A DNA stretch of 64,000 nt from Nereocystis luetkeana (lineage: Eukaryota > Sar > Phaeophyceae > Laminariales > Laminariaceae): contig JARUPZ010000010.1 of assembly GCA_031213475.1 (NCBI GenBank), positions 5,868,776 to 5,932,775 of the forward strand, given 5' to 3'. The translations under genes and the position numbers were made by a program. This document shows positions 8,738 to 35,850 of the stretch, one piece after another. The notes below the pieces were generated by a model, which did no database searches, had not been told where the DNA came from, and saw nothing but the letters and a program-made list of their open reading frames with translations. Every line of letters starts with the position of its first letter. Position 1 is the stretch's first letter.

Positions 8738-11700
8738 GTGGTCACGGCCCAGATCTACGGCATCACGGAACAGCTGCAGTGCCTGGGCGTCAGGGGCCTC
8801 GAGCTTGATCTCCACTACAGTGAGTCTTGCGTGGTGTATATGGTGTGGTGTGGTGTGGTGTGGTGTGGTGTGGTGTGCAGTAGTGTGGGGTAGTGGAGAG
8901 GATCTTTTTTTGTCTCGTGTTGCTTCATGCCTTAAAATTGATGTGATGCGTCTTGTCTCGTATTGTCTCGTATTGCCTTACCTTGCCTCGACGCGCCTTG
9001 GCTTGATGCGTCTTGTGCCTATCTTGTCTTAGGACCTGTCTTATCTCGCCTCGACCTTCTTTGCCTTGACTTTACCTTGTCTTCTTTTCATGTCTCGCCT
9101 AGGGTTGGCACGTGTTGCCTTGCCTTACCCTGCTTCGCCTCGCCTTGCTTCGCCTTGCTTCGCCTCACATTGTCTCAAACGTGGTACTTTCTCTTTTTCT
9201 TGCGGTCTTGACCTTTGCGATCGCGCAGTCGGAGATCTAGTCGAGGAAGGAGACGAGGACTCGGCCATCCGGCTGTGCCACACTTCGACCGACCCAGCGA
9301 TGCAGCTCGTCGCCATCTGCGAGGAGCTCGGATGGGAGTACTGCGAGGAGGCGGGCGTGCAAAACTTTGGCAACGATACCGGGTGCCGCGCCGGAGCACC
9401 CACCTTCCGAGAAGGGCTGGAGGTACGTGGGCGTAGCCGCGAGTGAGGGATTAGGAGACGTGACGGTCGTGATAGTGGTGGTTGGGGCGGGGGGGGGGGG
9501 GCGGCGGGGGGGAGGGTGATGGTGATGGTGGTGGTGGAGGTGGTGGCGTTGTTCTTGTAGCGGATGTCGTTATCGTTGTTGTTGATGTTGTTGTTGATGT
9601 CGATGATGGTATTGCGCGTTTGGTGAAACACGGAAGTGGCGGGTCGGCGGGCGGCGGGAGGTCGGGGGGCGGCGGGAGGCGGGGTGTGTGTACTCGATAG
9701 GAGAGATGTACTCGATCTCATGCATGGCCGTCGTATGACCATAGACCCTCGGGGGTGCACCACGGGGAAGAGATCTGCTCGTGCGCCCCCCCCCCCCCCC
9801 CCCCCCCTCCCTTCCCCGGCCCCTCCCGAAAGTGCACCTCGGTCCGTCGTGGATGAAGAGAGAAAAAAAAAAACACTTGAGCCGCATCGATGACTGACCA
9901 TTTTCTTCTTCTTATGTGGTTCGTTTTCTTTGCTCTTGTGTGCTCGCTTGCTCGTGTGCTGCACACCGGGGTTTCTGGGATCGGTCGTTCTCCCCTTCGC
10001 CTCGAAAACGCCGAAAAAAAATGAAACCTCATCGGCCGTGCGATCGTGGGGAGCAGGAGATCGCGGCGTGGCTGTTGGAGGAGGAAAACGAGAATGAGGT
10101 TGTGTACCTTAAGCTCGACAGGTCCCTCGACGGCGAGGTACGAGCAAACAGTCATGCAGCTATTATTCCATGCTATTAGATTAGTACGTACGATCGAACC
10201 GAGTTGCGAACCCCACCACCACGCCCACCCCCGCCCTGATACACACGCCTGCTGGAGACACGCCGTGCTGGGTGGAAACGTTTGGACTGCTTGAGCATGA
10301 TTTTGAAGGCCAAAATACCCTTCTGTTTATGTCCAAGTGGGCTTAATTGATACCGGTGTACCCGATAGGGGGCGGGGAGGGTTTTATAGAGCTCGGGGGA
10401 GCCGGAGATCCCTCCCGTCCCACCGAAAATCTCCGTCCTTTTTTTGTGTTTTTTGCTAGACAGACAGCAGTAGGGGTCCCCCCCTAAGACGGTCTGAATA
10501 GGGCGGTATCCCGATATAAGGCGGTCAAAATCGCCTGGCGCGAGTTGGGAATTGCACTCATAACCTGGAATGAACAAGGCGGCTTCCCCCCCTTGAAGAA
10601 GGCGGTACTATTGCTCCCGCACACCACCGCCTTACCGGGGGAGGGACTCTGCCCCATCTGCGCCCCGATACCGCGATAGATGTATCACTTTTTCTGTCTC
10701 ATGAGGAAATATTTGTGACCGCCGGGGCTCTTGTGCAGGAACCACCCAATAAATAAGGCACGCTTTGGCTTACGTGTTGTGCTCGTTGTATACCTATATT
10801 GTGGCATCGGGTTTGTTGAACTTTTTAGTTTTTTTTCTCTAGAAAAAAAATGGGGGTGATACACACACGTATAGGGCTTTGCAAGTGGGGATCCCCAGAA
10901 AAAAAGGTATAGGTGCACCCCAAGGGTACACTGAAAACAAAAACGATACAGTAGTATGTGCTCGAAGAATAGTACCTAGCACCTTCTTTTTTTTCAAGTC
11001 GCATGCATGACAGGGGGGTATGCTAAAATCAAGTTGCAACAGAGCCGAAGAAAGAAAAAACATCCTTCACGTCCTTTTCTGACAAAAAGCAAATCCCGCT
11101 ACGTACGTACATATTTCGTAATTTGTGTTGCGAGTGTGGCACGATTTTCTCTTCCTTTTTTTTTTCGTGAGCCCGTGTGCATCCCTGTCTTAACTAGTAC
11201 TGACTTTTGTGTTTTGCTCATCCCATCTATTAGTACCAGGTATTAACTATACACCAGCAAAAAAGCGAGTGCCCTCATAACAGCTAGAGAACTATAGATA
11301 TAATATCTCCCCCGTGTCTTCTCGGCATACATCTCTCTCCCGCTTGTATCCCGGACGTTTTTTTTGTGTTTTTTGTTGTGTTCTGTGTTTTTTTCTACGG
11401 GCAGGACGATCGGGCTTCCAACATCACCGATCGGGTTTCCAACATCACCGCCGAAGTTTTCGGGGAGGATATGATATTCTCCCCGGCCATGTTGGATGCG
11501 TATCGGCAAGGCAACGAGTGAGTGAGGGGGGGGTGAGAGAGAGGGAGGCAAAGGAGGGAGGGCAAGAGGGGAGAAAGGAGAGGGTGGAGGGAAGGAGGGA
11601 GACGGGGGGTGGAGGGGGGGGGGGAGGGGGGAGAAAGGGATGGAGAGAGGGGGTGAGGAGGAGTGATCAGACCCTCTATGTAGCGCTTGTGCCCATAAAC

Positions 11701-12057
11701 CTTTCGGGAGGTGTACGTTAATGTTTCGTGCCGTCATGTGCTTAGCGGTAAGCTTCGGTATGGCACGGCGTGCGAATGTGGTATTGTATGGTACTGTATG
11801 GTACTGTGTGGTATGGTACCGTATGGTATGATATGGCGTGGTATGGTAGGGTATGGTGTGCTATGCTATACCTGGTAAGGACTTTGCTGTTGCTGGGCTA
11901 TGCGAGCTACGCTATGCTATTACGTGCTGCGCTTGGCTATGAAATACTATGCAGCTGGGCTATGCGCTGCCGCCGGTCACTGACTCGTCTCTCTGTCTGT
12001 CTGCCTGTATTGCTGGCTGGCTGCCTGCTTGTCTGTCTGTCTCCCTGTGTGGCCGCC

Positions 12058-12094
<37 letters not shown>

Positions 12095-14421
12095 GACCCG
12101 ATAAATATGGCCTGTTTCACCAGCGAGGACGACTGGCCGTCTCTCGCGAAGCTCGCTGAGGACGGCACGCGCGTGGTACTGGCGGGACTAGAGCAGTCAA
12201 CGCTGGTGTTCGAGTTGCAGGAGGTACGTGTTCAGTACCGTTGGATGCTTGGGGTGTGTGTACCGTCGAGGAGGTACGTGTTCAGTTCCGTTGGATGCTT
12301 GGGGTTTGTGTGCACCGTCGAGGAGGTACGTTTTCAGTACCGTTGGATGGTTGGGGTTTGCGCACCGTCGAGGAGGTACGTGTTCAGTACCGTTGGATGC
12401 TTGGGGTTTGTGCACCGTCGAGGAGGTACGTGTTCAGTACCGTTGGATGCTTGGGGTTTGTGCACCGTCGAGGAGGTGCGTGTTCAGTGCCACGGACGCT
12501 TGAGAGAGGTGCTGTTGAGTACTGTTGACTGAAACGCTTCCAGGACGTGCGCATTTTGTACGATTGAACGGTGAAGGTGCTGTTGAGTATAGTACCGTTG
12601 ACGTCTTGCAGGGCATGCTTGTATAGTACCGTTGAAGACGTGGAGGAGGTGCGTGTTCAACGCCGTTTGAAAGCTTTGAAAATGTTCGCGTCTGGTGTAA
12701 AACCGGTGAAGACCCGGAAGATGTGCGTGGTTACTTGTCGGTTGAAAAAATGAAGGAAGTGGCGTGTGCGTGTTGAGTCCCGTTGAATTGGTACTGTTGC
12801 GGGCTTGGAGGAGCGTGACGTGCGTCGTTGTTAGCGGTGCCAACTTGAAGAAGTGACGTGCGTGGTTGGCACCGCGGTAGACTGAACCCTTTTAGGGATC
12901 GAGTCCCGTTTTGGGGACACACCACTCAAATTCCAAGTCAATTGTCCCCAATTGCCCCCAAAACGAGACCGCAGTCCTAAAAGGATTAACACTTGGAGGA
13001 AGCGCGCTACTGCTAACGTCTTGGCCGACTCTTGGGCATCCAGTTGTTATCGTTGGTGTTGCGCGTAGTCGACGTTGTTGCTACCACGGGGGCTGCTTGT
13101 TACGGTAGTATTGCAGTTGGCGGTAGGTGTTGGTGTCGCAGTTGGCCTTTCAGTTGCAGTTGCAGCTGGAATTTTGCCGCTGTGACGGGGTGTCCACAGC
13201 TTTTTGTGCACCCTGGTTGCAACCATTGTGCGTAGGCTGGCTCCGCGCTGTTGGCACGCGCGCACGCTTCATTGCTCTGAATCGCCGGACGATCCAACCG
13301 CTGAAATTACGCAGGATTGGCCTGATCAGCTGAATTTTAATCTTCTGGCGCTCATCTGTGAGCCCAATCGCCCACCAGTTGGCTCCCCCTCCCACTCAGC
13401 GCCACTTACTCACCCCCGCTCCACTATCCGCCACTTACCCCCCCCCCCCCCATCCTTACCTCCCCCAACCCCCGCCCCCCCCCCCCCACCCCTCCCCCTT
13501 TCTCCCTCCCCAATGCTCACTCACCCCCTCCCCGTTTTTACGTCGGCTTGGTTTATGTCGGACTTGCCGTCTCCGCCTACTGCCATCGCCATCGCCGTCT
13601 TTCCGACACTCTCTCAGGAAAGAATCACGCCTGCCAATTTTGACTGCGACGAGATTGATGGCGCGCCTGAGCCGTCTTGGACGCGTATACAGGTGCAGTC
13701 AGGTTGGGTTGGGTTGGGTTGGGTTGGGTTGGGTTGGGTTGGGTTGGGTTGGGTTGGGTTGGGTTGGGTTGGGTTGGGTTGGGGTTGGGTTGGGCTGGAT
13801 TGGATTGGATAAGGTTGGGGCTGGGTTGGGTTGCGCTGGATTGAATTAGGTTGGGTTGGGTTGGGTTGGTTTGGGTGGGGTTGGATAAGGTTGGGACTGG
13901 GTTGGGTGCAATCGGTTGTGGGGTTGGGGTTGCGGTTGGTTTGGGATGGGGCTAGGTTCGTCGGTGGATTTGTTATTCGTTTCCTTGCTGTGGTTTGGTT
14001 CGGTTGGGTTGGGTGGGGTTGAGGTTGAGGTTGGGGTCGGGCATGGGCTGGGTTGGTTCGTTGGTCGGTTGGGTTGGCTTTGTCGGCTGCGTTGGTTGTG
14101 TGTGGTTGATTGGTTTGGCTGGTTGGCTTTTGATTGGCCGGTAGGTTGCTGTTTTTTTGTGCGGGTGGCTTGTTCATCTTGCGTGTTCTTGGCGCGCATT
14201 GGCATACTGCTTGTATATGCTCCTGCTCATGCCTCTGCTGCTGTTTTCATTCCACCGTCTTCTTCCTTTCCATTCTGATTTTTGAAGGGCGACATGGTTG
14301 AGTTCCGATTGTCCCGCGGGAACACGACGGTCTTCGAATACCTTCCGAAGGACAACGCAGCTTTGGTGGGGGGCACTGCCGCTAAGGCGATAGCGTGCGG
14401 CCTCACGCCCACGTTCGACAG
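8738..14421 (+). CDS. PI-PLC X-type (PLC-like) phosphodiesterase domain, 7 exons, 5' incomplete
   Basis: Exons: 8738-8819, 9229-9422, 10057-10137, 11405-11517, 12124-12223, 13618-13692, 14288-14421; every junction keeps phase. The protein shows the PLC-like barrel order: ITEQL, GVRGLELDLHY (strand with the metal or acid residue), RLCHTS (second catalytic His), EIAAWL...NEVVYLKLD, FGEDMIFSP, WPSLAKLAEDGTRVVL, and CGLTP after the last strand. These are hallmarks of the secreted PI-PLC/GDPD-like superfamily seen in bacteria, fungi and algae rather than of the Ca-dependent eukaryotic PLC with PH/C2 domains. The likely reaction is hydrolysis of a phosphodiester in a phosphoinositide or related lipid head group. 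The substrate cannot be told from sequence. The first catalytic His must lie in an upstream exon that I could not find. Confidence 0.82.
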
Positions 14422-15437
14422 GTTCGTTCGTCCACTATGACTTCAAGCTTGAAGGTTGAGAGTTGGCATCTTTGGGTTGATGTTGCGATATTTTGAATAC
14501 TGAAATTTGTGTGTTGAGAATGCCCGATGTTGAACTTTGAACTGGAAAGGTTGAAGCTTGAATTTTTGAAACTTGAAGGTTGAAGTTTTAGGCTTCAAAT
14601 TGAAGGATTGGCGTAGGAGTTCGACGCCAGGAGTTGTCGCTTCACCTCGTGACGCTCGCGCTTCCCCCCCCCCCCCCCCCCCTCCCGCCACCGTCACTCC
14701 CCTATGGTCATACGACTACGCCGATGCATGACGTGAGCCCCCACTCCCAACCCCCCTAACCCCCTTCGGTCCCCAAAGGGATGCGTGGTCGATGGTCAAA
14801 TGACTCCTAAGGCGAGCAGCAAATGAGAACGCCCTCCCCCCCCTTTCCTATCCCCCCTCCTAACTCCCGCGCCCCTGAACCACCTAACCCCCTCCCCCAC
14901 CTCTTGCTCCGTCTCGAACGGGATGCATGGTCAATGACCCAATGACTAAAGCAAGCAACAAGCGGCTCCCCCCCCCCCCCCCCCCCCCCCGCTACCCGTA
15001 GCTTCGGCCAAGGATGACATGAGTACACCCTTAGCCTCCTGAACACGCCCCTTCCCCATGCACCCCCCCCCTCTCCCTCCCCGCTCAGGCTCGACGCTGA
15101 CCTGATGAATTCAACGATATGGTCCTGGTCGTATGATAAGCCAGAGACGGGCTTCGCCGTGGCAAGGGCCGCGGTGATGGTGTCTGATAGCGATGGGCGA
15201 TGGGAAGACGTGGACAGCGATTACGAGACGGGGAGGCAGGCGCACTCTTACGCCTGCCGCGAGACGGGTGGGTCGTTGTCGGGGGGATTGGCGTGTTGGT
15301 GATGGTGTGGTTTGCGGACTGGTCTTTGCGTTTTGCTGTGGTGGGATGGGGTGGGGTGTGGTGTGGTTTGGTTTGGTGGTGTGTGTGTGTTCCGTTCTTC
15401 CCCTCTTGTCTGTCGCGTCAGTATCTATCTTGGTTCC

Positions 15438-15473
<36 letters not shown>

Positions 15474-15900
15474 TCCCTCCTGTTTCTGCTTGGCGTATGT
15501 CGGTGTCTATGTGTCTGCCCGTCGGACTGTCTCCGAATGCACCCGTACTATACAAACCCCGCTAATTTTTCTCCACCGCAACATTTTCTTTTTCTCAGAT
15601 AACCGTCGAAAGTGGAAGGTGGTTCCTGTCCGCCCAAGCAGCAGCAGCAGGAGCAGGAGAACCAGGAGGGGAAGGAGGGGGAGGAGAAGGCTTAGCACGA
15701 GCGCTAATTCTGACGAAGATGAGGCATTTGTGGAGTACAGCAACTACATCGGGAAGTTCGCGGAAGCGGAAGGGGCGTGCAAGTCGCTGGGGAGCCAGTA
15801 CACGTTCGGTGCCCCCCGTACTGCTTACGAGAACGAGCAGCTGCTGATTGCCATGGATGTGCGTGTTGGTGCTGGTGTTGTTGTTGGCATTGCTGTTTTT

Positions 15901-15954
<54 letters not shown>

Positions 15955-18900
15955 ACCAGTGCTGTTGTTGATGGTGTTGTTGTTGATGCCGCGGACGTAA
16001 AACTCAAGCCAGCTGAGGGTTTCGTTCGCCGCTCGCCCGCATCAAATGCAACACGTACAGAGAGACAACGTTCGCTTTGACAGTTGGACCTCGTCTTGCT
16101 TTGCTTTTGTCTATCACGTTTTTCATGAAGAAAACATAGCCGGCATTGGCGTGATTAAGTTTTGATTTTTCATTTTTCGGGATGCGTTTTGTGCTTGGTG
16201 TGCTGTTTTACTTTAGGACGCCGGCATTACGATGGCGTGGCTAGACTACACCTCGCAAGGGGACAACGCGGGGGACTCCACGTGCTGGACGCGAGAAGAC
16301 GAACGAACCTACTGCGTCGCCGCCTTCTCCAATGACGTGAGTTGACTCTTGATAGTCCATGGGGTTGTTGTTGTTGTTGTTGTTGCCTCTCACCCTCAAC
16401 TGACCCCCTCCCCCCCTACCTCCTTACCGCCTGCTTATCCCCCCCCCCCCAAGTCGTACGACCACGGCCATGCACGATACGGAACACCTCCCCTCCCTCC
16501 TATCCTATCTCCTCTCCTTGCCTTCCGCCCCTATCCCACCTCCAACCCTCCCCCCCCCCCCCGCCTATCTCCCCTCATTAAGCCCCTAGTTTCTCCCCTT
16601 CCTCCCCTCCTCCCCCCCCCCCCCCCCCCCCCATCCCATCCTACATGTCCCCTCTACCCCCGTGGATATGCCCTCCCTTGCACACCCCCTTCCCTATCCG
16701 ACCTCTCACCCCCCCGCCCCCCCCCGAGATAGATGGAGGCCACAAACGGCGAAACAGGAAGGGGGTAAAATGTGCAAAAAAAACAATCTAGGTAATGCGT
16801 CTCGAAAGGGATGCGTGGTCAATGGTCAAATGAATGAGGCAGGCAACGAATTGGTACACCTCCCCCCCCCCCCCCCCCCCTACGAGGCGGTTACATAGTA
16901 TACCCATCGCTGTCTCTGGAAGCGGCCACACCAGAAAATAAACCGCTTCGTTCGACGCTGAGCTGACATCCACTGCAAGAAAGGCGGCCGCCTCACAAAC
17001 GATTCTTAGTGGGACAAAGGTCCGCTGTTTGATGGCTCACCAAACACCTCTCACGGCGCTTCGCGCTTGGTGCAACAATCAATATCTGCGTGGTCGGTGG
17101 CAAACTCGACGTGCTCCATCTCAGCAGTGTCTGGATGCGAGGGCCTATGGTCATACGACTAACGGCTTGTGCATGCCATGAGTACCCCCCCCCCCCCCCC
17201 CCCCCCCTCCTACTTATCTCCTGTACCCCCCTGAATACAACGCCCGTTACCCCCTCTTTCCCCTTATCCTACCTCTCCTCCCCGCCCCGCTACCCGCTAC
17301 CCCCCTCGCCCGTACCGATGACGTGATGTTGATGTGGCAGTCCTGCTCTGCGGCATCCTCGCCGCCGGAAGCGAAGGCCGACGGGCAGCTTCCGTCCATC
17401 TTTCTCGCGGAGTGGGAAGTGGACAACTACATCAGACCTAACTACTCGGTGACGGCCACTGTGGACAATTTGCACGGCTGGGTGAGGGTGGCGGGGGAGA
17501 ATGAGTTTGACCTTCAAGACAGAGGCTACGGTGAGAAACACGCAGGCTTGTGTATTGTGCACCACTCTGGTGGTCGGAATCTAGAGACCGTCTGAACGTT
17601 TATAGGAAGGTCGAGCGGTCCTTATAGCTACGACCAGGGTGATGTAGGGGGACCGCGGTATGACACCTTGACTGACCGCCCCTTGCATTGAAGCTATTAC
17701 GGGGGACCATATTAAATAGGACCCACGGTACACACAAAAAACTGCATGTTTATTTATTTTTACTAACAATATATTTGGTCCCTATTTACTATGGTGCCCG
17801 GTAGTAGTATAGAAAGGTAAAATTACCGCTGTGTGACCTCTTAGCTGACCGCTCGCTACACTAAAGCTAGTATCGTGAGGTCATAAGAGAACCGCGGCTT
17901 GACCCTTTGGCTGACCGCCCATCTGCACGGAAAATATTAATAGTATAGCACGGTCAAGAGGAGACCGCGTTTGACCCTTCGACTGACCGCCCCCTACAAT
18001 AAAAGTAGTATTGACTCGTCCCTAAAGACCGGTCTCCTACTCGGCGCTTCCGACGCTATGTATTGACGTAGGAGGAGGGGATTGAAGGTCGGCGAGGGGG
18101 GGGGGAGGGAAGGGAAGGGAGGGAGGACGGGAGGGGGGGTTGGGATGAGTGATTGGGGGGGAGGGAGGGAGGGAGGGAGGCATAGTGACGTCGAGGGGTG
18201 AGGGGACGGAGGGACAGAGGGAGGGAAGGAGAGGAGGGAGATGGGGGGGGGGGGGGAGAGAGGACGGAAGATGGGAAGGACGGAGGAATGAAGGCTTGAG
18301 ATAGGGTAGGGATGGGGTACTCGACTGGAGAGATGTACTCGATCTCATGCATGGCCGTAGTCGTATGACGGGGGGGGGGGGAGAAGGGACACGGTATACA
18401 CGTGGATATGGACATGGCACGAGAAGGAGGGTGTGTTTCATTGGGGGAGTGGGGGCCAGGGTGGTCCAGCGTAATCATATTATGTACCAGGTAGCTAAAT
18501 TGTTTCTGTCACAGAGCGAGGGGCGCGCGCAAGCCTGCCCTTCCCCCCTCCCCCCCCCCCCCCCCCCCCCCCCCCCTCCCCGCCCCCGCCCCCCCCTCCA
18601 TCCCCTCACACGCTGTTTTGCCTCTCGCTCTCTGCTGGTTGTTTGTTCAGTTATCGGCATCGTTCTAGCTGCGGTACCGGTATTCGTGTTCGGGATCATC
18701 GTTGCTTGCTGCTGTCCTCCCGGTGAGAGCCCGCTTTCATTTTCGTGTTTTCTATTTTTTCTTTTTTGTTCATGTCAGATTCGTTATGTCAGATTCGTTC
18801 ACGCCGACCACGATTGAAGCACACACACGTATATGATACAGCATTGGTAGTATCAGCCATATACGAGGACGTGTGTGTAGAGAACATTCGATCAAAAATG

Positions 18901-21900
18901 ATGGGGACGGTTTCGTTTGAGATACAGATGGTTGACGCGTACAGAAGGGCGTTTGAAAACGAGCTAGTGATAGAGGTGTCGGGTAATGCGCAAATACGTG
19001 TTTGCCGCAAGCGTATCATATTTCTCTCTCTCTCTCTCGTCACACTCGCTGACCTGCTTCCTATTTTGCTGGTGCTGTCGCGGGATCGTGCATGCAGGTG
19101 GGACATATCGCTGCGGGAGCAAAGAGCACCACATTGACGGGAGAGGCTTCTTCGGCTCTCTCTGTCCAAGAGGTAAAGTGTGACATACAGCTGGTGTGTC
19201 GCACAGATCAGATTACGACCTACCTAGGTCATCCAGATTGTAACAACCGGATATACCTCAGAACGGTAGCATCAGTGTCCACGGTAACATCAGCGCCAAC
19301 GGTAGCACCTATCTGAACGGTAGCTTCAACGCTAATGCCAGCGGCACAACATCAATGTCAATGGAAACACACAGTGTCAACGACAGCATCAACGTCAACG
19401 GTAACAACAACGCCAACGGTCACATCAACGCCAACGGTAACATCAACTTCAACCTCGATGCTATCGTTGCGTTTGTTTGCGTTGTTTGGGCAGGTGCAAG
19501 CGGGAGACTTTTTGGGGTCGGGCACGCTAGCTGTCGTGGGAATGGGCACGCTCCTGACCGTCATAGGGTGAGTTAGAGAAAATTGCTATTACGGGGGACC
19601 ATAGTCAATAGTACCTATGGTACAGATAAAAACCCATACCTGGTATATTTAACCATTTTTACGAACAATAGTTGATCCTATTAACTATGGCCCCCCGCAA
19701 TATCATGAAATAATAGGAGACCCTCATCAATAATCCCGGGTGCTCTACTATAGGGGTAGACAGTTATTCAGGACCCAAATATGCTTGGTAAAAACACTGG
19801 AATATATAGGTTTTTGTGTGTATGATGGGTCCGGCTTTGTCGTATTAGGACCAAAGAGCTTTATATATACCTAGGATTGGAGAAATCGCCACGGACACTG
19901 GATGATGCTGGATGTCGACGGGTAAAAATAATGGTTTAATAAATTTGAAGAGGTCACACGCACAACGTAGGGGCAGCACCCAACGTATTTGTTCTGGGTC
20001 TACTCACTTGGAAATAGTGTACGAGATCCATGCCTCATCCAGGACTGACTTTTGATTAGATGTGTAGGCTTTGAACCCGACGAAAGGATCCTATGACCTG
20101 TCACACACCTGGCAGGTGGCAACGTAAAATGCCGTGCAAGAAAAATGGGATAAAACCTGCCCGGCGAATAAACGGGTACTTTAATCATCTGAGGAGATCA
20201 GCCATGTCACAAATATTTCGGGCCGAAAAAGCGCTGCGTACCCCCTGACTGACCCATTCCACCCACTAATATCAGCATAATAAGGCCAAAAGAAGCCTCG
20301 ACGAGCCCCACAATGCATACTGGTCTCCTACTGGGGGGGGGGGGGGGGGGTACTACAGCAGCAGTATTCATAGCAGTAGATACATACTGGTCTCCTACTG
20401 GGGGGGGGGGGGGGGGGGGGCGTACTACAGCAGCAGTATTCATAGGCAGTAGAGGGACTGGTCTTTGGATCCGTCGTGGGTTTCGATTGCTGCCACTCTG
20501 TCCACAAATGTAACGATCGTTTTTATCAAATGTGGTGTATAAGCACTCCTTGTATAAGGGGACAGAGTGGTATCTGGTATACTGCTGTAGCCCCTTGTAA
20601 TTAGCCTATGTGAGGAGGAGGCGGGGAGGGGGAGGAGGGGAGTGAGGAGGGGGGGAGGGGGGGGGAGGGGGGAGGAGGGGGAGGAGGAAGAGAAAGAGGA
20701 GGGGGGGGGGGGAGGTGGGGAGTGTACTCAGTATCATGCATGACCGTCGTCGTATGACCATTACGGTGAGTCGTTGTCATGCATGGCCGTAGCCGTATGA
20801 CCATAGACCCTCGCATCCCTACAATGCTGGGACGGAGCATATCGGGTTTTCACCGACCAGGCAGACATCGCTAGCACCAAGCGCGAAGCGAAACGGGAGG
20901 TAATCGGCGAGTCTCATAAAGGGTGGGGTGCATCCATCCTACTCAGAACCGCTTGTGCGGCGAGGAGGGGGGCGGGGGCGGGGGGGGAGTGGGCGGGTAC
21001 TCATTTGTTGCTTGCCTTAGTCGTTCGACCTTTGACCGCGCATCCTTCTCGAGACGGAACGGGAGGGGGGATGAGGAGATAGGGAGGAGGGAGGGAGGGA
21101 GGTGCAGCAAGAGGAAGAGGAGGGAGACGAGGGAGGGCGGAGGAAAAGAGGAATGACAGGGTGCGGAGGAAGGGAGAGGGGTGGAAGCAGTAGGAAAAGG
21201 AAGAACTCTCAACCGACACGCGTCCGTCCCTCCGCGAGGGGTTTCCTAATTGTGTTGGCTTTTTTGCGTGTCCCGTGTGGGGGGTTGCTGCTGGTTGGTG
21301 ATTGTGTCTGTTTGTGGTGTTGGGTGTTAAGTGTAGCTTCTTTTCTTTTCGTGTTTCGGTATTCGTCTTGTTTGTGTTACCTGCTTCCGTTTATTTTTCG
21401 CCTCTTTTATCCGTATTTATTTTTAATCGACGTTGCAGGGGCGGGGCGGCTATCTTTGGCGTGCGATCCCTAGACGCCGATATTGTCAGCCTATGGGGCA
21501 GCCTCGAAGACATGGGACAAGACATGGTGGTGGCTCAGGTCTGTTTATTGTTGTCGTTGTCGTTGCAGTGTTTACTACAGTAATTAGTTACTGTCCTCCG
21601 TTGTGCTCGAGGTTCGTGCAATGCATGTCTCCTCCCCCCCCAGTGCAAGCAAGCAGTGTCTGCCTGCCCCCCCCAGTGCAAGCAAGCAATGTCTGCCTGG
21701 TCGGTGAAAACCCGACATGCTCCATCCCGGCACTGTCGGGATGCGAGGGTCTATGGCGGTACGACTACGGCCATGCATGAGATCGAGTACATCTCTCCTA
21801 TCGAGTACACCCCTCCCCCCCCCCCTCCCAAATTACTCATTTTTTGCCCAATTTTGCTCAATCTTGCTCAATTTTGCTCCGTTTTGTTTGTTTTTTCAAG

Positions 21901-24900
21901 ACTACGGTGATGATACGTTCAAGCTCATGGGACAGGTGGTGTCGAATTCCCAGACGTGGCGTCGTGCTCTCAAGTGGACTCCTGGAGGATGCCGTCGATG
22001 GAAATCAAAAGTGCCAGAGATGCCATCGAAGGTGCGATGTAGACGAGAGGGGGGAGGGGCAGGGGGGGGGTGTACTTGATAGGAGAGATGTACTCGATCT
22101 CATGCATGGCCGTAGTCGTGTGACCGTAGACCCACGCATCCATTCCTACAATGCCGGGACGGAGCATGTCGGGTTTTCACCGACCAGGCAGACATTGCCT
22201 GCACCAAGCGCGAAGCGCCGTGAGGTGTCTGGCGAGTCGCACGAAGGGTGAGCTGCATCCTACTAAGAACCGCTTGTGGGGCGGACGCGCATATGAATGA
22301 CAGCTGCAATGAGTTAATTTAATTTCCGGTGTAGCGACTTCCAGAGACAGTAATGGGAGCACTATGTCACTGCCACTTGGGTGCCTTACCATAAATATTA
22401 CGTGATACGATAATCCACCGTTGTGGGGAGTACAGGTTGCTTACCTCGCACGCACGATTTAACTTGACTAACCAGCTGTGACCGACGGCCCAAAACAAGA
22501 AAATAAAAAAGCGGTATCCTGGTTTTCTAGCTCAAGTAGTGAGCGACATGTTTTACAGTGTCGTTGCCAACCGACGCCACCCAACCTATATATGAGCGGG
22601 GGGGTGTGTGGCGTATGGAGGAGGGAGGGGAAGGAGGGGGGAGGGGTGTGCTCTTTATCATCCATGGCCGTAGTCGTACGACCATACAGGGGGGGGGGTG
22701 TACTCAATAGGAGAGATGTACTCGATCTCATGCATGGCCGTAGTCGTATGACCATAGACCCTCGCATCCCTACAATGCCGGGACGGAGCATGTCGGGTTG
22801 GGGGGCGTAATCATGTGTTGCTTACCTTAGATTTTTGACCATTGGCCACGCATCCGTTTCGAGACGAGGGAGGGATGGGCGGTGACCGGGTGGCGTTATT
22901 AGGCGTGTTCGTTTTTTTTTTGTTGTGTCGTATGGGCGTGGTGTGGTGTGTGCTTTGTCAGCATCCCTGTTAGCATGCTTGCAGCCCAAAGAGTGCTTGT
23001 GGTTCCTGTGGTGTGTTGCCCGTGGTGTGTTTGGGTCGCAGGCGTTTTCGGGCGGCCACATCATTACCACTATCACACGCATCAATCTCCTCTCATTGTA
23101 CGGCAGCCGACGCCCCCCCCCCCCCCCCTCCTACCCACGAAAACAAACACAAAACGAAATAGGTATGGTCGACGATGGCAACATCGGTAGCGTGGGAAGA
23201 GGCATCGAGAGCGTGAACGAGGAGATCAGCAGCAGTACGGGGACGAGGCGAGGGGTCGTCTACTGCACAGCGGCTTTGTCCTGCTGATGTCCATCATCTA
23301 TGTCCTGGTCGGGTACTACGCTCCTCCAGAAGGGCAGGGGGAAGGCCGCGAGCGCTCGAGTCAGGGGGTGAGAGGAGGAAGAGGTTTTGTTAGGTGGTGG
23401 AGAGGGGACGGGGGGGGGGGGGCGGAATGTACTCACTGTCGTGCAATGGCCGTAGTCGTGTGACCACACGACCATAGACGCTGGCACCCTTACAATGCTG
23501 TGCTGGACCGGAGTACGTCGGGTTTTCAGCGACCAGGAAGGCGGGGGGGTTGGGGGGGGGGGTGCGAGTCAGACGGGCGGATTGGGAGGCAGGGAGGTTG
23601 AAGGATGAGAGGAGGAGGAGTGTGGCGCTTGCGAGTTGTTCTGGAGGCGGCGGCGAGGGAGCGGGGTTGAGGGGGGGGGGTGGGGGGGGGTCGGGTTTTA
23701 TTGGCGCCAGTACACGGCTCTACCAATTTTGTTCTTTGGGGATTTTCAGCCTTCCTTACAGTTTTCGCACCCCCTCATACGACTACGGCCATTTTTTTTT
23801 TTTTCTCATCCCATTCATTATCTTCGCACATCTTCTTGTCTCTCTCCTTCCAACTCGTAACTCAGATCCGGGGTCATACGACTACGGCCATGCATGATAA
23901 TGAACACCCCCCCCCCCCGCCCCCCCGTCGTTTTCGTTTTTGTGTTGCTGTGGGTCAGGCCGGTGATCATTGGCTGCCTGTTCCTTCCTCTGACCCTGAT
24001 GGTGATCCTGCTGTGCTGGTTCCTCTTCGGCCTCCTCACCTCGGTGGCCCTTCTGACGTCAGACTTTTGCACCTCTCCGGCGGACCACACCGTGGTGAGC
24101 AATGCATTTTTTTACGGGTATGTAGCAATCACACAACAAAAGAACTTAGGAGGCTCGTCACTCTTAGGGGGTCATTTTGTTTGTCCCACCCCCCAACGTG
24201 TAAAGGCTAAGTTCCATAACCTGGTGGTGTACGGTATGTGTCAACCATGGTTGTATATGGCGTTTTTTTTGTTGTTGTAAAAGTACAGGTGGTATGTATG
24301 GGTTTTGTAACGAGGTTGGGTTCGTTTTTCGTTTTGCGGGAGGGACTGCGATCCCCAATGGAGCACACTACACTATCACGGGAGTCCATAGTAAATAGGA
24401 CCTACCGTACACACAACAACCTGTATATTTCCCTCTTTCTCCTGACAACATTTGGGCCTATCTACTGTGGTCCCCCGTAATAGAGTGGGTTGCAACTCTT
24501 CGTGCAAGGGTTTTGATTTTTTCCCGTCGGGAGGCGTGCGCTTGTGTTTTTTTCAGCTATGGTGATGTGCATCTATCTGACTGTTTATGTATACCGTAGT
24601 TTGATTTGACTGTATTATACCTGGTATATTTTTTTGCTCCTGAGGTATGTATTCTCGCCGGTCCGGGGTGTTTTGGAACCTCTGTCCTGTGTGATCACGG
24701 ACTCAATATTTTGGACATGGATTTGACCCTTTCAGGACCGCAGTCTTGCTTTGGGGACAAACTACTTGAAGTTCGCGTGGTTTGTCCCCAAAACGAGACT
24801 GCGGTTCTAAAAGGGTTATAACGCGAACGTAAAAACAGTCAACGTGTTTCCTCCAACCGAACGAACGTTTTTGATTTTTTTTGGCCGAAAAACGTTCTCA

Positions 24901-27900
24901 TCCCTTCTCTAGGACTGCAGTCTCGTTTTGGGGGGACAAATTACCCAAATTCTTACTATTAATAACAAGACTGCCGTAGCTTGTGCCCTAAGCGGGACTG
25001 CAGTCCAAAAAAAAAAGTGTTTTTTTTTTCTGTTGGCGCCGGGTGGGTCTCTTCTTGGTGTGTGCGTGGTGTTTGTTTTTGCATGGTGTTGTTGTGATGG
25101 GATGCAGATTATCTTGTAGCGGAAGCTCTACAGTAGCTGTAGCACTGCTACACGGGGCAGATTGCACCCGTAGTACGGCAGGGTGTTTATATTAATAGTA
25201 CAGAAACGCGATATTGATGTTGTGCTGTGGCTGCCTTGACAGGAGTTGTAGCATGCAAAGTCGTGTATCAGTACTAAAACCGGTAAGTATATACTGCTGT
25301 AGCACCATCAATAACTGTAAACTCGTTTGGGCTGGTCGGTTTTCCTCGAACGCTGGCTACGTACGTACGTACGTACTTTTTTTTTTTTAGCTCTCCAAGA
25401 CTTTTTTTTTTCAAACTTTTTTTCTTGTGTTCTCCGTTTTTGCCCGGTGGCTACGCGTATGAGTAGCTGGTACGAGGAACGAACGCCTGCTATGTACTCC
25501 CTTTTCACCTCGGGACACCCCCGGGATTTCAAGCCAACCACAATCCCGAAGGAAGGGAAACCTTGTGCGTATATATAAAGTATATACTAGTACACAGTAT
25601 ATACAAAATATTAATATTACGGGGGACCGAAGAGCGGGAAGTGGTACCCGGGGGTCGTCGAAGCGGCGGACTGCTTCATGGCGAGGTGGCACAGGAACGA
25701 AGCACAGAAGAGCCGGCTACGCCACGCAGCAGAGGATGCCAAGAACGGCGACAAGGGGAGGGGGGGAGGGGGGAGGGGCGGCTGTTCTGAATCAGCTGTC
25801 GACGAACGTAGAAACGAAATTATAGATCGGGTGGCTAGGTATCGGTTCGACTATGAATAGCTCTTACAGACTTATGCCTGTATATCCCTCTCTTTCGTGT
25901 TGCTTCGTCCCTGCAGCAGATACCTGCCCTTCCTGAGTACGTATGCTTTCCATCTATTGTAGCACCCTTGCTGAAGTCCTTGCGTCGTATGTATTCTGTT
26001 TTTTTTTTTTTTTCTCATTCACAAATTTGTTTTTTTTTTGGTCTTATGGTATTTTTGCTCTTATTTTTCCGGTCTTGCTTGTGTTGTTGTGTTTTCGTAC
26101 CCGGTACGCTGACCCTTCACTTGCTTGACACTTGAATTTTCGATTTAGTTTTAGTTTTAGTCTTCCTCTGTCTCACAGTCTGTGACCACATAATCAGTAT
26201 CTCTCTAGGATAAGGGATCAGGACGGACACTGGGTGTACTGATGAAGCTGGGCAGAAAGGGCGATTTAATGTGAAGACAACAACAACAACAACAACATAG
26301 TTAATAGGACCAAATATTGTTCGTAAAAATGGTTAGATATATAGGATTTTATGCATATCATGGGTCCTATTAACTACGGCCCCCCGTAATAGTAATAGTG
26401 GTTGTGGTAGTGGTAGTAGGGGTAGTGTTTTAAAGAGTGATCATATTAATGGTAGCACTCGTATCGTAGAGGTATAATAGTAATAGTACTCGTATTAAAT
26501 AGTACCTGGTATAGTGCTATGAGCAGAAGGAGAGGTAGAATCGGTAGTCTTGGTTATAGTATCATACCTGGTACCTCCTGGTATTGATTGTTCGTACAAG
26601 TAGCGTGTGTTCTTATTATCACTGTGATCGTCTGGTAGTCACAAAGTAAAGATTGATGTAAAAGTAATACCTATTATTACGTGCGTGGCATGTATTATTA
26701 ATAGTAATATCAATATTAATACCTATGGATGCCTGATGGTTATTTATATATTTTGCGTATATTATAGCAACACACCTGGTGTCTTTGGTAGTAGTTTCTA
26801 GTGCGGCAGGAGTGATTTTCGTAGTATTCTTACCAGCGATCATAGTTGTTCATAGTATAGTGGTATCGCTTATAACGAAACGTACACCATCTGTTGAACA
26901 CTCTGTTTACCATTGCGGTTATTTATAGTTATCATATTACGGGGGACCATAGTTAATAGGACCTATGGTATACATAAAAACCTATATATTTGACCATTTT
27001 TACTAACAATATTTGGTCCTATTAACTGTGGTCCCCCGTGATAGTGTAAAAATAACAACAACGGCAACAACAACGGCAACAACAGCGTGGCGTGCCTACA
27101 GGGTGAAAACAAAATGCCGATCACGTCCAATTCTCCAAACACCTCGGTGTCCCTATAACACCACTTGCCCCCCTCCCCCCCACTACACACATGCCTCCAT
27201 ACACCCACCCACCGACGCACGGCAGAGTGTGTTCACCAACATGGACGACAAGCAAGTCATCTCCTACTACACCACCTGCGAGGGTTCAAACGTTTTCGTC
27301 GAGTCCCTCTCCTCGGCTTTTCTACAGGGCAAGGCCGCCAGAGGCATCCTTTCTGCAGTCGACGATGAGAGCTTCGAAGCTCAATGCCCGAATATGGTGT
27401 GTGGGGTGATGAGATGGGATGGGATGGGATGGGATGGGATGGGATGGGATGGGATGGGATGGGATGGGATGGGATGGGATGGGATGGGATGGGATGGGAT
27501 GGGATGCAATGGGATGGGATGGGATGGGATGGGATGGGTTGGGATGGGATGGGATGGGATGGGATGGGTTGGTATGGGATGGGATGGGATGGGATGGGAT
27601 GAGATGGATGGGTTGGGTTGGGATGGGGTGGGTTGCGTCAGGGTTTTAGCGGGTCAGGGTTATGGTTAGCACTCGGGTTTAAGGCTGGAGGTGGGGTTAC
27701 CGTTGGAGTTAGTGGGGGGTTGCTTGCTCAACCATGATGGGTGGGTGGTTGGGTGGGTGGACTAGAGGTCAGGGTTGAGGTCAGGATCGGGGTTGGGGTA
27801 GATGTTTAGGTCGAATTTCGGGGGTGGGGTGGGGTCGGGTGGGTACGGTGGGGGGTTGGTGTTGGGGTTTGAAACCTATGCCTAACCGTAACTTCACCGT

Positions 27901-28214
27901 ATCTCCCCCACCCTTTGCTTTAGTGCGTAAATTACGGGTGTGATTGCGCTTTACAACGCAGCGCTCTGTTGTTGTTTTCATTGTTGTTGTTGTTGCTCTT
28001 GCTGTTGCTCCTGTTGTTGATTTCGTCGTTGTTATCGTTGCGCTGTTGTGTATGGCAGATCTCGACCAAGGAAGACCTGGGGTCGGACATCGATGAAATC
28101 TTGAACAACATCGGCATCATGGGAAGCCTCGTGCGTTGCGGCAACGTTAACCCGTGAGTCAGCCTCCGCTCTGCCCTGGACGGCGATATGACTCGAGTAT
28201 TATTATTATTATTA

Positions 28215-28293
<79 letters not shown>

Positions 28294-31200
28294 AGTACAG
28301 GCCCGCTGATAAAAAAGTACCGAATAAGAACATAAGATCACTAATTCGGTTGAGTAAAACCGCTCAGAAGTGGTGGAAGTGTACAGTAAATTCTACACTA
28401 AATTCTATATAGTAGGCTATGCTCAAGTTTGTTTGAAGATGGCGCCCCAATAAGAATCTCATGCTTGCCCAGATTAGGTGTTTCTTGTTGGCCGGCCCAA
28501 TACTGTGCTATTGCTACGTATTAATGATACCTGCTGTCTTTTTTCATCCCGTTTTTTTAGCTTCGACCTTCTTTTCTCTTCCTATTTATAGTCGTACTTC
28601 GAAGTATACTATCAATAGTACCGGTATCATATATCAGGTCCCAACAAGGTAGCAGAATGCAATACGGAGCACCGTGCGGTATGCGTACGTGGTCTTGAAA
28701 TCGTGGTTACACGCTGATTTTGGTTTCCTCCCCAGGGCAGTAGTAACAGCAGCGTACTGGAAGTAGTCGTGCAGAGTAATACTGGTACAGAATGCTGCCA
28801 GTAGGAGTACGCGTGGGCTTGAAAAAATCGTAGTATAATACTTGCACGCTGTTTTTCCTTTGTTGTTTTGTGTATGTTTGGCAGTCGCTCCTTCGTGAAA
28901 ATTCGTAGTTCACGTAGCTTTTCGTTTGTTTGATGTGCAGATGTGTGCTTCGTGAAAACCGTCGTGCGTGTTTCTCAAGCTGCCTTATCTAAGTGTTTCG
29001 TGCGTTTGCTCTACCGAACAGCTACTTGGTAAAAATCGCAGCCGAACGTTCCTGTTTCTCACTGTTTTGTGTTTGTTTTGCGAGTACGTATTTCCGTGAA
29101 AATCGCGTTTGTCGTTACACGTTGCCTCTTCTCGTTTGTGTTTGTTTGTGTGTGTGTGTTTTTTTTTTTTTTTTTTTTGTCAGGTACTTCGTGGCCGGCG
29201 TGGAGGGTTCTCTGTGCTCGGACGCGCCCACAAACGTCTGGTTCGTGATCTGCGGCTTCGCGGTTGTGTCGGTCAGCCTGTTCGTCGTGGCCGTGTCCTT
29301 CCGGCTGCTGCTCCAGCAGAAGGAGGTCAGAGCTACTTCTTCTGTTGGTTGGTTGATTTTGTGGGCTGTCTGATTGGTTGGTTGGTCTTGGGTGGTATGG
29401 TTCGTGTGGGTGGTTGTTTTTGACTGGGTGATTTGGTTCGGGTAGTTTTCAGTAGTTGGTTGGTTCGTTCGTTGATTGGATGGTTGGTTAGGTGGTACCA
29501 ATCTGGTTGGATGTGTAGATTTGCTTGGTCGTCATATTAACGAAACGCCTCCTTTATGTTTGCCCACAGGGGTTGTTTGGGGTTTGGCTTTGTGTTTGGG
29601 TGGGTGGGGTAGTTCGCTATCTTGTAATATGGTTCGTATGGTTTGTACGTTGGTTGAACGTTGATAGTTGGGTGGGGGAGTTGGATGGCTTAGTTGGTTA
29701 GTTTTCCTGGGTGTGTGAGGATGGGTGTTTTTTGGTCGGTTTGGTCTGAATGGTTGGTTTTATTGGGTGGTTGCATGTATGTTGGTTGATGAGTTGGTTG
29801 TTCGATGGGTTGATTGGTTTCCTGCTATGGTTGACTGCTTGGGTGAGTTTTTTGCGCTTGCTTGATTGCTCAGTTGGCTTTGTTTTAATGTGGGTTGTTC
29901 GCTTCGGTTGCCTGGCTGCCGGGCTGGTTAGGTGGAAGCGGTTTTGTGTGCTTGATGTTGTGGCGGCTTGTTGATGGGACAGACAAGGAGAGAAAACAGA
30001 GAAAGAGAAGCTGCAGGGCGCCGACAGTAGCAGCAGCAGTGTACGTACCTTGTTTTTGAGGACCTCCGTGGAAAAAAAAACGTGTTTCACTATCTGCATT
30101 ATTTTATTTCTCTCACTAAAGCCCCCCCCCCCCCCCCCCCCTTTTCCCTCCCTCCCCCCCTCTACCGCCCTCCCGCCTTCTGCCTCTCCACCGCTTCTCG
30201 ACGAGATAGGAAGGTCTCTACAGGGTGGTGTTCGAGGAAGACCTGTCGAGGTCGTGCGACACACTATCCGACGACAGTTTCCCCCTTTCTGCGGGCGCCA
30301 AGCGCTCCTCGTCGAACTCCTTTGCGAAGAGCAAGGACAGGGGGGGAGGCATTGAGGCTGACTGGAACGGACGTAGAAGAGAGCACGCGCGGACGGGTAC
30401 CGCCACCACTACCACCCATGCCGCTACTGCTACCGCTGCTGCTGCTACTGGTGGTGGTGGTGGTGGTGGTGGTGGTGGTGGTGGTGGTGGTGGTGGTGGT
30501 GGTGGTGGTGGTGGTGGTGTTGGTGGTGGTGTTAGTGCTACTGACGAGTCGTTTTTGCATCGTCATCCTTCGGTTGCCTTGGTTAGGACATCCTCTGCCC
30601 GCGCTCAAACAGAACCGGCTTCGGCTGCTGCTGCTGCTGCTCCTGCAGTCGCTGGAGGAGAAGAAGAGGATTCCCAAACGTCTGGCACGGTTTCGAGGAC
30701 AGACTCGTCGCCCCTAGCTTCCGTGAACTCCCCGACACTTACGGGGGCCGGGTCGGGGAGGGGAGGAGAAGAGGGGGGAGGAGGAGGAGGAGGACGAGGA
30801 CGAGGAGGGGGAGGAGCTGGAGGAAGAGATGAAGAAAGAGGAGGGGGGAGGGGGGGAAGAGGAGGAGGAGGAGGAGGAAGAGGGGGGGGGCGAGAAGCGG
30901 TGGCGGTGGCGACTGCGGCAGGGCGGGAGTCAACGACGGCTAGGCCGGGTCGAGCTAGACCGGTGGAGTCTGCGCTGCCGATGCCTCGCGCTCCGTCTGC
31001 CGGCTCTATCTATGGCCTCGATGCACAGCAGCACCAGGTGGGTGGGTGGGTGGGTGGGTGGGTGGGGGGTTGAGTGGGTGGGTCGTTGTCTTGTACAATA
31101 ATGAGCTCCTTTCGTTAACTGTGAAGATTATCGGGAAGGGGGGGAGGTGTGTACTCATGCCATTCATGGCCAGAGTCGTATTCGTATGACCAATAGACCC

Positions 31201-34200
31201 CCGCATCCCCCCCAACATAAGCAATGTCGGGACGGAACGCGTCGGGTTTTGACCGACCAGGCTCGGGAAGGGAGGGGGGCGAGAGAGAGGAAGAATGACT
31301 GGGTTTTTTTTGTTGTCTTGCAAGATACCCCAGGGGGGGGGGCGGGGGGGAGAGATGATGAGTGTTTGGGAGGCAAGAGGAGCAAGCGGGGCAGGGTGTA
31401 GAAAGGCGGGAGTAGGGAAGGGAAGGAGCAAGGTGGTGGGAGAGGGGAGGGGGAGGGGGGGTGTACTCGATATCATGGGGAATAGGAGTCCGGGGGTAGG
31501 GCGAGGTACGGGGGTGGTGGTGTTGGAGAGGCAGTGCGCACGCTGTGTGCCGCGCATCTTACGCTTCCACAAGTCCCAGAGGAAGCCAGTTGGGATTAAA
31601 AAGTCTATCTTTCAGAATTGCAGCCACCGCGGTTTTGGGGACAACCCTACTTGGAGTAAATTTCTTTCCACAGGATTTCAAGGGTCAAGACTATTTTCTG
31701 TAACCCGCTCACCTCCCCCCCCCCCCCCCCCCCCCCTGGACTGAACCTTTGTCGAACGCGCACACACTCCTTGCCGGACGAAGCAGGGAGAAGGACCACT
31801 CGCCGGACAAGGTTCCGAGGCTGGGCGTCGAATCGTCCGCTCGAAATCCAGCAGCGGTCGCTGGGGCGGGGGGTCGGGCCGCGTCGGCGCGAAACGCGTC
31901 GGCGCGAGTCCCGCGAGGGGATCTGCGGCGGCGGGGGCGGGGTTGGGGAAGGCGGAGGGGGGAGGGGGGGCGGGGGGCGGGAGGGGGAAGGAGATGGAAA
32001 ACATGTACGGGTCTTCGTCTTCTGAGGGCGACGAGGAGGAGGGCCGTGGTGGTGGTGGTGGTGGTGGTGGTGGTGGGAGGGGGTCTCCGGAGAGAGGCGT
32101 TCCTGCGTCAAGAGGGGACAGGAGTGGGCCTGACGAGAGTGGGAGCGGTCGGTACGGGCGTCGCGAGCACCGTTCGTGGCGTGATGGGAGCCGGCGGGCG
32201 AGGGGGGCTCCTACTGGTGGAGGTGTTGGGCTTGCGGACACCGGGAGGAGGGGGAGCACGAGACAGAGATCGACAAAGTGAGATATGACCATCATCATGA
32301 CGACGATGATGGCGGGGGTTGGTCGATGCGTGTTGCGGTGGTGGTGTTATGGTGGTGGTGTGTTTGTAGTCGTATGGAGTACCTGGTATAGAGGAGGGCG
32401 GGTGGGGCGGGGGGGGGGCGGGGGGGTGTACTCATGTCATGCATAGCCGTGGGCGCGCGCGGGAGGGGGGGAGGGTGGGGGGTAGTGGAGTTTGAAGGAG
32501 TGGGTCAGGAGAGAGCGTCGAGGGAGTGTGGGAGATGTAGTTGGATAGAGTGGGAGAGAGCGAGGTTGGGGGACGTGAGGAAGAGAGAGGTAGGAACTGA
32601 TGCAGAGATGGCAACAGATAAAATAAACAGACAGGTGCATAGAGACAGGTTTAGAAGCAGAGGTTGATGGCGTGGCGTCAAAGATGAACATTTGCCCTAA
32701 ATTATTGCAGTAGCTTCAGGTGTAAATCCCAACCCTAGCCCTGCTTTACTTGTATTTCATCCTAACCCAGCGCTAGCCCTGATGCTAGATAAAATGCACT
32801 CAACCTTCGGAGACAATGGTTGAAATTAATCCAGAGTCAAGGCAGTTTTTGCGGTATACGTAGTCAGACTACGAACTAAAAACAAAAGAACGAAAAAAAA
32901 TGAAAATGAAAAAACAGCGAAGAAGAAATCAACGGGAAGCAATTAAAACGCCACTGGTGTCGACGAGGGGGGCAGAGCAAATCGGTGGCTATGTTCGCGA
33001 CCGTGGGTCTTGAACGAGGCAGACTGACGTGGCCGTGCCCAAACCGACCCCCCCCCCATCTCTCCTACTGCCGTATGTTTTTTAATGAGTTTCAACAGGT
33101 TTATCCTGTCCCCCGCACACGCTCGCGGCGAACGCACCTTTGCAACTCTGGCCTCCCGCACCAGCTGCTGCAGCAGCAGGAGCGGCAGCGTCAGCGCTAC
33201 ACCGTTTCGTCCAACCCTGACCAATTCGACCCTCCCACCCCCCAACAGCTCCCTTCCCCCCTCGCCTCCCGTTCCTCCTCTCGCTGCGACGTTCCGACCG
33301 GCTCTAACTTACGCGACCCACCGCCCCCTACCCCATCCTCCTCCACCACCACCTCCTCCTCCCCGCCCCCCGCCCCCCCTCACTCCCCTGTCCCCGCCCC
33401 ACTCCCCGCCTCCGCCTTTGGCAACGCCTTCGACGACCCACCAATCAAGACTCTTCCGCACCCTGGCGGGGCTAGACGACCCGACCGAAGAAACGCCTTC
33501 CGTGATCATCTCGCGCACGGGAAGTGTCGGTGGTGGCGGTGGTGGTGAAAGCGGTGGTGACGGCGAGGAGAGCGAAACGCTAACGTTTACGGTCGCCCGC
33601 CCCGGGAGTTTCGTCGGTAGCCGCGCTTCCCTCGACGGCAGCAACGGCGGCGGTGGGGGTGGGGGTGGGGGTGGGGGGATCGGTCGGCGGCGCCACTCCC
33701 GCAGTTATCTCCGGAACGCGTCGGTCCGCGAGGGAGGACGATCTCTCTCCCGCGTGGGGATCGACGACGGGGATAGCGACGACGGGAGGCGAAACACCCA
33801 CCACCAAGGTTGGGGCGGGGGCGGCGGCGACGGCGGCGGTGGTGCGGGGGGAACGAGGAGTGTTAGCGAAAGGCGCATTGACGGCGGCGGCGGCGGCGGC
33901 GGCCGCCAGGCTTTGGGTAGGAGTGGCTCCGCGGTCGGTGGTGGCACCAGTAGTGGTGGTAGCGGTGGCGAGGGGGGTAGGCCGCGTCGCCTGAGGAGCT
34001 TCCGCGTAAACTCCGGCGCTGCCGCCGCCGGCGCCGGTGGTGGTGGTGGTGGTGGTGGTGGTTTGCTGATGCGTGGGCTTTCCGGAAGCGGGCGCTCGGG
34101 GATCGGCCTCCCGTGGACACCAGGACAGCACATGTTGACGCCGAAGGAGGGCACGTGGGCGGCGTTTAGCAGGGACTACCCGCGGGACCCTGGGGTCAGC

Positions 34201-35850: not shown

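Follow-up and report, generated by a model that had tools for sequence, protein, structure and literature searches.

A PLC-like ectodomain anchored to the membrane is known from fungi, in MTC6. The Tweety proteins, of which TTYH1-3 are the closest known relatives of the second half of the locus described here, were long named anion channels. They have recently been recast as helpers of lipid transfer: in one study, transfer of lipid from APOE particles is faster with human TTYH2 (PMC12328215). In a structural study the N-terminus of Tweety is on the outside, where a short helix lies at the level of the lipid head groups; a hydrophobic cavity, filled with lipid, extends from the outer leaflet, and no ion conduction was found (PMC8361169). 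The link of the family to anion flux, which the initial annotation of the locus had mentioned, is contested, lipid transfer being what the two sources indicate (PMC8361169; PMC12328215). Potential Tweety orthologues have been reported in two diatoms, according to a review (PMC8273234).

Here we describe an algal locus, from Nereocystis luetkeana, at which the exons of a PLC-like phosphodiesterase are followed on the same strand by those of a Tweety protein and by a very long low-complexity tail. From the sequence, both halves probably belong to one gene encoding a PLC-like ectodomain, Tweety and the tail. This would be a new architecture built from two known families. The initial annotation knew of none described with this order of domains, and our literature search likewise found none similar. 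Among the 5.39 million open papers searched no PLC-Tweety fusion came to light, nor is one described in the available parts of PMC8327215 and PMC11405016; an annotated but undiscussed algal homologue may exist.

The exon chain and its two halves

The window, by which we mean the whole stretch of 64,000 nucleotides analysed (G000, contig C10, 5868776-5932775), comes from a genome of 465 Mb in 1,987 contigs. The exons of the initial annotation were rebuilt by hand, and their borders and phases were then checked (Table 1). They are present as sequence with GT-AG borders. In E1-E15 (15 exons, 8753-21538) the borders are GT-AG throughout and the phases agree, the join between the halves at 16336/17341 included (0/0). 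The phases agree as well in E18-E25 (23959-35850), which terminate in a TAA at 35850. Unbroken phase through the Tweety exons, as had been claimed, was not found: E16 is out of frame with 21538, and E17 shifts frame internally. Ten in-window exons (8753-16336) hold most of the PLC-like phosphodiesterase domain and a Cys-containing region downstream of it. The tail, annotated at about 1,350 residues, measures 1,356, of which 27% are Gly, and is open to the TAA; its last exon, E25, is open over 2,752 nt. A micro-exon at 29983-30040 was rejected, since there is a stop in its frame 0 and the chain does without it, 29325 joining 30210 directly in phase 0.

Table 1. Exons of the modelled chain and the interval between its halves (positions are those of the window unless a contig is named)
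Feature	Position	Strand	Remarks
E0, PLC-like domain, putative catalytic-His exon (YDVPLDKQTLLATHNSYSSDGDLTTHANFE, ATHNSY)	C10:5858044-5858134 (window -10731 to -10641)		phase 0 out
E1, PLC-like domain (IYGITEQLQCLGVRGLELDLHY)	8753..8819	+	aligns in register with the PI-PLC relatives from bacteria
E2, PLC-like domain with second His (LCHTS)	9229..9422	+	
E3, PLC-like domain	10057..10137	+	
E4, PLC-like domain	11405..11517	+	
E5, PLC-like domain	12124..12223	+	last exon within the profile match
E6, ectodomain	13618..13692	+	omitted by gene-finder at two of its three intron penalties
E7, ectodomain	14288..14421	+	
E8, ectodomain (WSW...GRWED...YAC)	15089..15267	+	
E9, ectodomain, polybasic stretch with four R-X-R-R motifs	15599..15858	+	Cys-containing region begins
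E10, final exon of enzyme half	16217..16336	+	donor GAC/GTGAGT, phase 0; TGA 16343-16345 if donor is read through
Presumed intron between halves (intergenic gap if two genes)	16337..17340	+	
E11, pre-TM1 segment, sequon NYS	17341..17530	+	enters in phase 0, leaves in phase 1; preceded by in-frame ATGs at 17326 and 17332
E12, TM1, then CCCPP	18651..18722	+	
E13, TM1-TM2 loop	19098..19172	+	not recovered by gene-finder
E14, TM2	19501..19567	+	
E15, remainder of TM2, then first extracellular Tweety loop	21439..21538	+	
E16, extracellular loop	21924..22031	+	apparent one-base frame break; not recovered by gene-finder
E17, extracellular loop and TM3	23163..23312	+	apparent one-base frame break; poor acceptor; not recovered by gene-finder
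E18, TM4 and TSDFC motif	23959..24094	+	
E19, large extracellular Tweety domain	27226..27396	+	
E20, large extracellular Tweety domain	28059..28153	+	
E21, TM5	29184..29325	+	
E23, low-complexity tail begins	30210..31037	+	
E24, low-complexity tail	31787..32277	+	
E25, low-complexity tail up to TAA	33099..35850	+	

As it lies in the window, the PLC-type domain of the initial annotation is incomplete, the exon with the ATHNSY motif (E0) being found 10.7 kb outside; it meets E1 in phase (0/0) across a 19.4 kb intron. With E0 included, the domain scored 47.1 bits (E 9.7e-14) on a profile built from nine bacterial relatives encoded on plasmids (L027 and L032-L039, of which three carry a PI-PLC annotation), the best of 1,000 shuffles on the same profile being 5.8 bits. 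Comparison of the algal stretch with the bacterial relatives by hhalign gave a probability of 98.1. Since a single profile match runs across residues 2-202 (numbered, as below, from the start of E0), which is E0 to E5, the joins between these exons are also supported. In an alignment of six rows, His14, Asn15, Arg44 and Asp49 do not vary, and His70 aligns with a His invariant among the nine relatives; Glu47 is common to the algal domain and L028, and differs in the other rows. By their place in the family, His14 and His70 would be the catalytic residues. Judged by these alignments, PI-PLC-like proteins of bacteria are homologues of the PLC half, so that this part of the annotation stands, and enzyme activity is predicted.

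Single-sequence searches of Pfam are less decisive. PI-PLC-X (PF00388) reached 11.5 bits against a cut-off of 23.1, and PI-PLC-C1 (PF16670) 10.9 against 29.9. The E-values (0.045 for the MTC6 TIM barrel, 0.24 for PI-PLC-X and 0.23 for PI-PLC-C1) vary with the stretch queried, and all the matches are under their cut-offs. The top Pfam match of long PLC queries is the partial TIM barrel of MTC6 (PF25506; E 0.045 to 0.092, 12.7-13.7 bits where the cut-off is 27). All three are PLC-like families. The bacterial L027 and L028 proteins also fall narrowly below the cut-offs, at 22.0 and 21.5 against 23.1 bits for PI-PLC-X and at 29.4 against 29.9 for PI-PLC-C1; their Pfam matches are PI-PLC, and the proteins are in register with the algal motifs. 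A tblastn search of plasmids with the PLC part gave 14 matches, the first four in Streptomyces and Nonomuraea (E 0.8 to 2, not significant), from among which the L027 and L028 loci were taken, and the remaining ten in Sinorhizobium (E 8), and one of phages gave three weak matches (E 1 to 5). The PDB sequence search with the PLC part returned no related enzyme, and the NCBIfam search no match. A lectin-like module, which had been proposed for this half, gained no support: the stretches E8-E10 and E9-E12 matched no Pfam family. Among six candidate ORFs upstream of E0 none was convincing as a signal-peptide exon, and a scan of coding scores there gave no trustworthy exon. One ORF start (MKAWLPQRR...VLLLFLIFFGRVPGALGQ; C10:5851405-5851562, or 2630-2787 of L002) resembles a signal peptide; its donor is fair and of the right phase for E0, but its coding score is poor.

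The Tweety half is recognized most clearly in its second part. A query of E17-E21 matched PF04906 (Tweety) at 45.7 bits against a gathering cut-off of 31.8, the match lying in E18-E21 (23959-29325) and covering profile positions 235-397 of 431. In the PDB, Tweety chains were all six of the matches at E up to 1, with TTYH1 at 3e-06. Of the two profile models that the initial annotation had named as a check, Tweety is thus above its cut-off and PI-PLC X below. E11-E15 alone gave no Pfam match, and the N-terminal half of the Tweety profile is unmatched. The first two helices were assigned by hydropathy and by a TM1-CCC-PP resemblance to TTYH1 whose alignment score is negative and has no statistical weight. 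A hydropathy script found four peaks, the third of them within about 49 hydrophobic residues (E17-E18) that have room for both TM3 and TM4, E17 being frame-broken. The Tweety-like identity given in the annotation is borne out by the profile match in E18-E21, its first half being unmatched, with TM1 and TM2 placed on hydropathy. Modelled exons E0-E15 encode seven sequons, every one upstream of TM1.

The window has several other features. Arms of a short dispersed element (GGTCCTATTAACTATGGTCCCCCGTAATA) are found at 1005-1033, 3849-3877, 17695-17723, 19587-19615, 19674-19702, 26363-26391, 26935-26963, 27015-27043 and 50751-50779, nine at up to 3 mismatches where none is expected by chance; some form pairs that face each other at a distance of about 100 bp, which suggests a MITE. 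Another dispersed repeat, of 28 nt (ATGGTCATACGACTACGGCCATGCATGA with its relatives), occurs at 14704, 16450, 18345, 20734, 20777, 21753, 22100, 22658, 22728, 23870 and 37885, mostly in introns of the gene and often adjoining long runs of C or G. The intron 24095-27225 has a coding-like stretch at 25633-25830 (KSGKWYPGVVEAADCFMARWHRNEAQKSR), which the gene-finder selected at two of the three penalties. From other parts of the window, ten larger stop-to-stop ORFs gave two Pfam matches (E 0.056 and 0.073), neither above cut-off, and Rfam had no match in the window.

One gene, two genes or a decaying copy

At the join, E10 leaves in phase 0 (GAC/GTGAGT) and E11 enters in phase 0 (CAG/TCC). The E10 donor ranks 8th of the 21 model donors and scores within the best 0.1% of positions in the window; the E11 acceptor, with a score of 3.55, ranks 9th of 21 and is in the top 1.1%. 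An equally good donor lies within the nine preceding bases for 14 of 982 stop triplets (36000-63900), as against five of the 21 gene donors that score as well as that of E10, and by our estimate this raises the odds for the join roughly 17-fold. The coding score drops past the E10 donor and climbs at the E11 acceptor. A gene-finder retained the join at all three intron penalties, with and without frameshifts, and also with both sites excluded from training, a result that is partly circular because its codon scores were trained on the same exons. E13, E16 and E17 were missed as drawn, and at two of the three penalties E6 was omitted and E12 altered or omitted.

The fusion of the initial annotation has thus in its favor the matching phases and the strong donor, whereas the in-frame ATGs at 17326 and 17332 and some rival acceptors leave room for two adjacent genes on the same strand, each functioning alone: a secreted PLC-like enzyme, then a separate Tweety gene. 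The enzyme would end at the TGA at 16343-16345, which is present, as had been stated, where the presumed intron begins, or else in a short terminal exon inside the gap, and Tweety would start at one of the two ATGs. Both are contained in the frame into E11, which is open from 17182, although the coding score is weak upstream of E11. Within the gap, three AG sites that would start exons at 16843, 17125 and 17128 score 3.63-4.17 against 3.55 for E11. Since they open short phase-0 frames, with stops after 32, 18 and 17 codons, respectively, a separate enzyme gene could conceivably use one of them for its last exon. The gap, at 1,004 bp, would be roomy enough for a 3′ end and a promoter, and has a single AATAAA (16937). 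It also carries a copy of the 28-nt repeat resembling those in the introns, which speaks for an intron, as do the donor immediately ahead of the TGA and the match of phases at 16336/17341. With the gap counted as intron, 10 of the 11 window copies are in introns of the chain. The gap copy is divergent (6 of 28 positions mismatched), and the repeat is not restricted to introns, because five further copies were found in the 50 kb of flanking sequence examined. On balance we consider two genes unlikely and prefer a single gene. Even a single gene could yield two proteins, if one precursor were cut at the polybasic stretch of E9 and the PLC-like part were shed, no longer acting on the chain of Tweety. 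Four overlapping R-X-R-R motifs (residues 362-374 from E0) lie there, past the PLC region and ahead of the next Cys-containing region. The stretch is, however, purine-rich low-complexity DNA that could encode Arg and Gly without function, and shedding appears to us quite improbable.

A different concern is whether the locus, fused or not, is decaying. Codon scores switch frame inside E16 and inside E17, and each switch fits the loss of one base. The breaks may be two local assembly errors or the mark of a decaying copy. If they were real mutations, no full Tweety protein would be made. Two apparent one-base breaks in neighboring exons speak for decay, and the first has no acceptable splice repair: the nearest phase-1 donor that avoids the E15-E16 break (GTTTAT) was rejected, as it scores -6.75, whereas the 21 model donors range from 5.17 to 9.65. 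For E17, a start near 23201 would avoid the break and lose the highest-scoring coding stretch, and was rejected by reasoning. The light-harvesting family PF00504 has 68 matches in the genome, from which the organism looks photosynthetic. The best 11 of the 68 each cover at least 156 of 162 positions without an internal stop; indel errors are thus not rampant in this genome, a further point for decay. Against it, the remaining modelled exons are open, including the 2,752-nt last exon, and the breaks are flanked by introns rich in repeats and homopolymers, where assembly errors would be likely. We think decay rather unlikely, but a possibility to be reckoned with. The frame breaks are the main result against a working protein; they are not a result against the order of the domains.

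The locus appears to be alone in its genome. When the genome was searched with the protein of each half (E up to 10), both searches had 12 matches, 11 of them within the locus and one at a weak place elsewhere (C27, E 0.345; C14, E 8.42); we read these two places as noise. A search with the Tweety family at E up to 10 found E18 at E 0.05 (19.7 bits) and five other places, the runner-up at E 0.0549 having slightly more bits (19.8) than E18; by eye, the translations of the five are nothing Tweety-like. It should be noted that the same search at E 0.001 missed even the gene that is present, so that remote paralogues split into exons could escape. No relatives of the locus were found in collections of prokaryote and virus contigs, which say little on eukaryotes.

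A possible lipid processor and its closest relatives

What the protein might do can be sketched for the single chain. That a single transcript exists, that the enzyme faces outward, that it is catalytic and what it does are all matters that we infer. The chain would consist of an extracellular N-terminal phosphodiesterase, the membrane and extracellular parts of Tweety, and a low-complexity cytoplasmic tail. Given an N-terminus-out topology, the phosphodiesterase would be positioned outside, adjoining the lipid cavity of Tweety. The outside placement fits, since the seven sequons precede TM1. A review cites a study with both ends of TTYH1 intracellular (PMC8273234), and in that case the enzyme would sit on the opposite side. 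With the enzyme outside, the Tweety cavity would extract a lipid from the outer leaflet. The phosphodiesterase, held above the cavity on the same chain, would act on inositol-type lipids or GPI anchors, cutting at the head group. We offer as a tentative idea, and a doubtful one as yet, that the protein may be a natural single-chain processor of outer-leaflet lipids, in which an extraction cavity of the Tweety type presents the lipid or GPI anchor that the phosphodiesterase cleaves, with a very long cytoplasmic tail.

If true, the fusion would be independent evolutionary evidence for lipid handling by Tweety, in a genome where no other Tweety gene was found. It would give a 'Rosetta-stone' link from the Tweety family to head-group chemistry outside animals. 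It would also open the Tweety family to a concrete enzyme assay; the non-vertebrate members are mostly uncharacterized, according to the review (PMC8273234).

In sum, the algal chain can be set beside three described systems. With TTYH1-3 (PF04906) it shares the Pfam match over E18-E21, with its DFC and C-x-G motifs, and a putatively extracellular sequon ahead of TM1; its helices might follow a 2+2+1 arrangement, four hydropathy peaks being listed with E17 frame-broken. It differs at both ends: the N-terminus is short in the TTYHs, whereas the algal chain has a PLC-like ectodomain before TM1, and a tail of 1,356 residues follows TM5; the first half of the profile is unmatched. MTC6 (PF25506) is the best Pfam match of long PLC queries, yet at 13.7 bits at most against 27, and membership is not claimed. 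With bacterial PI-PLC-like proteins (genes of Streptomyces, Embleya and Tolypothrix plasmids), the likeness is a match over E0-E5 with His14, Asn15, Arg44, Asp49 and His70 in register. The algal domain differs from these in having long insertions, in that its second His is followed by TS and not by G, and in being joined to a membrane protein.
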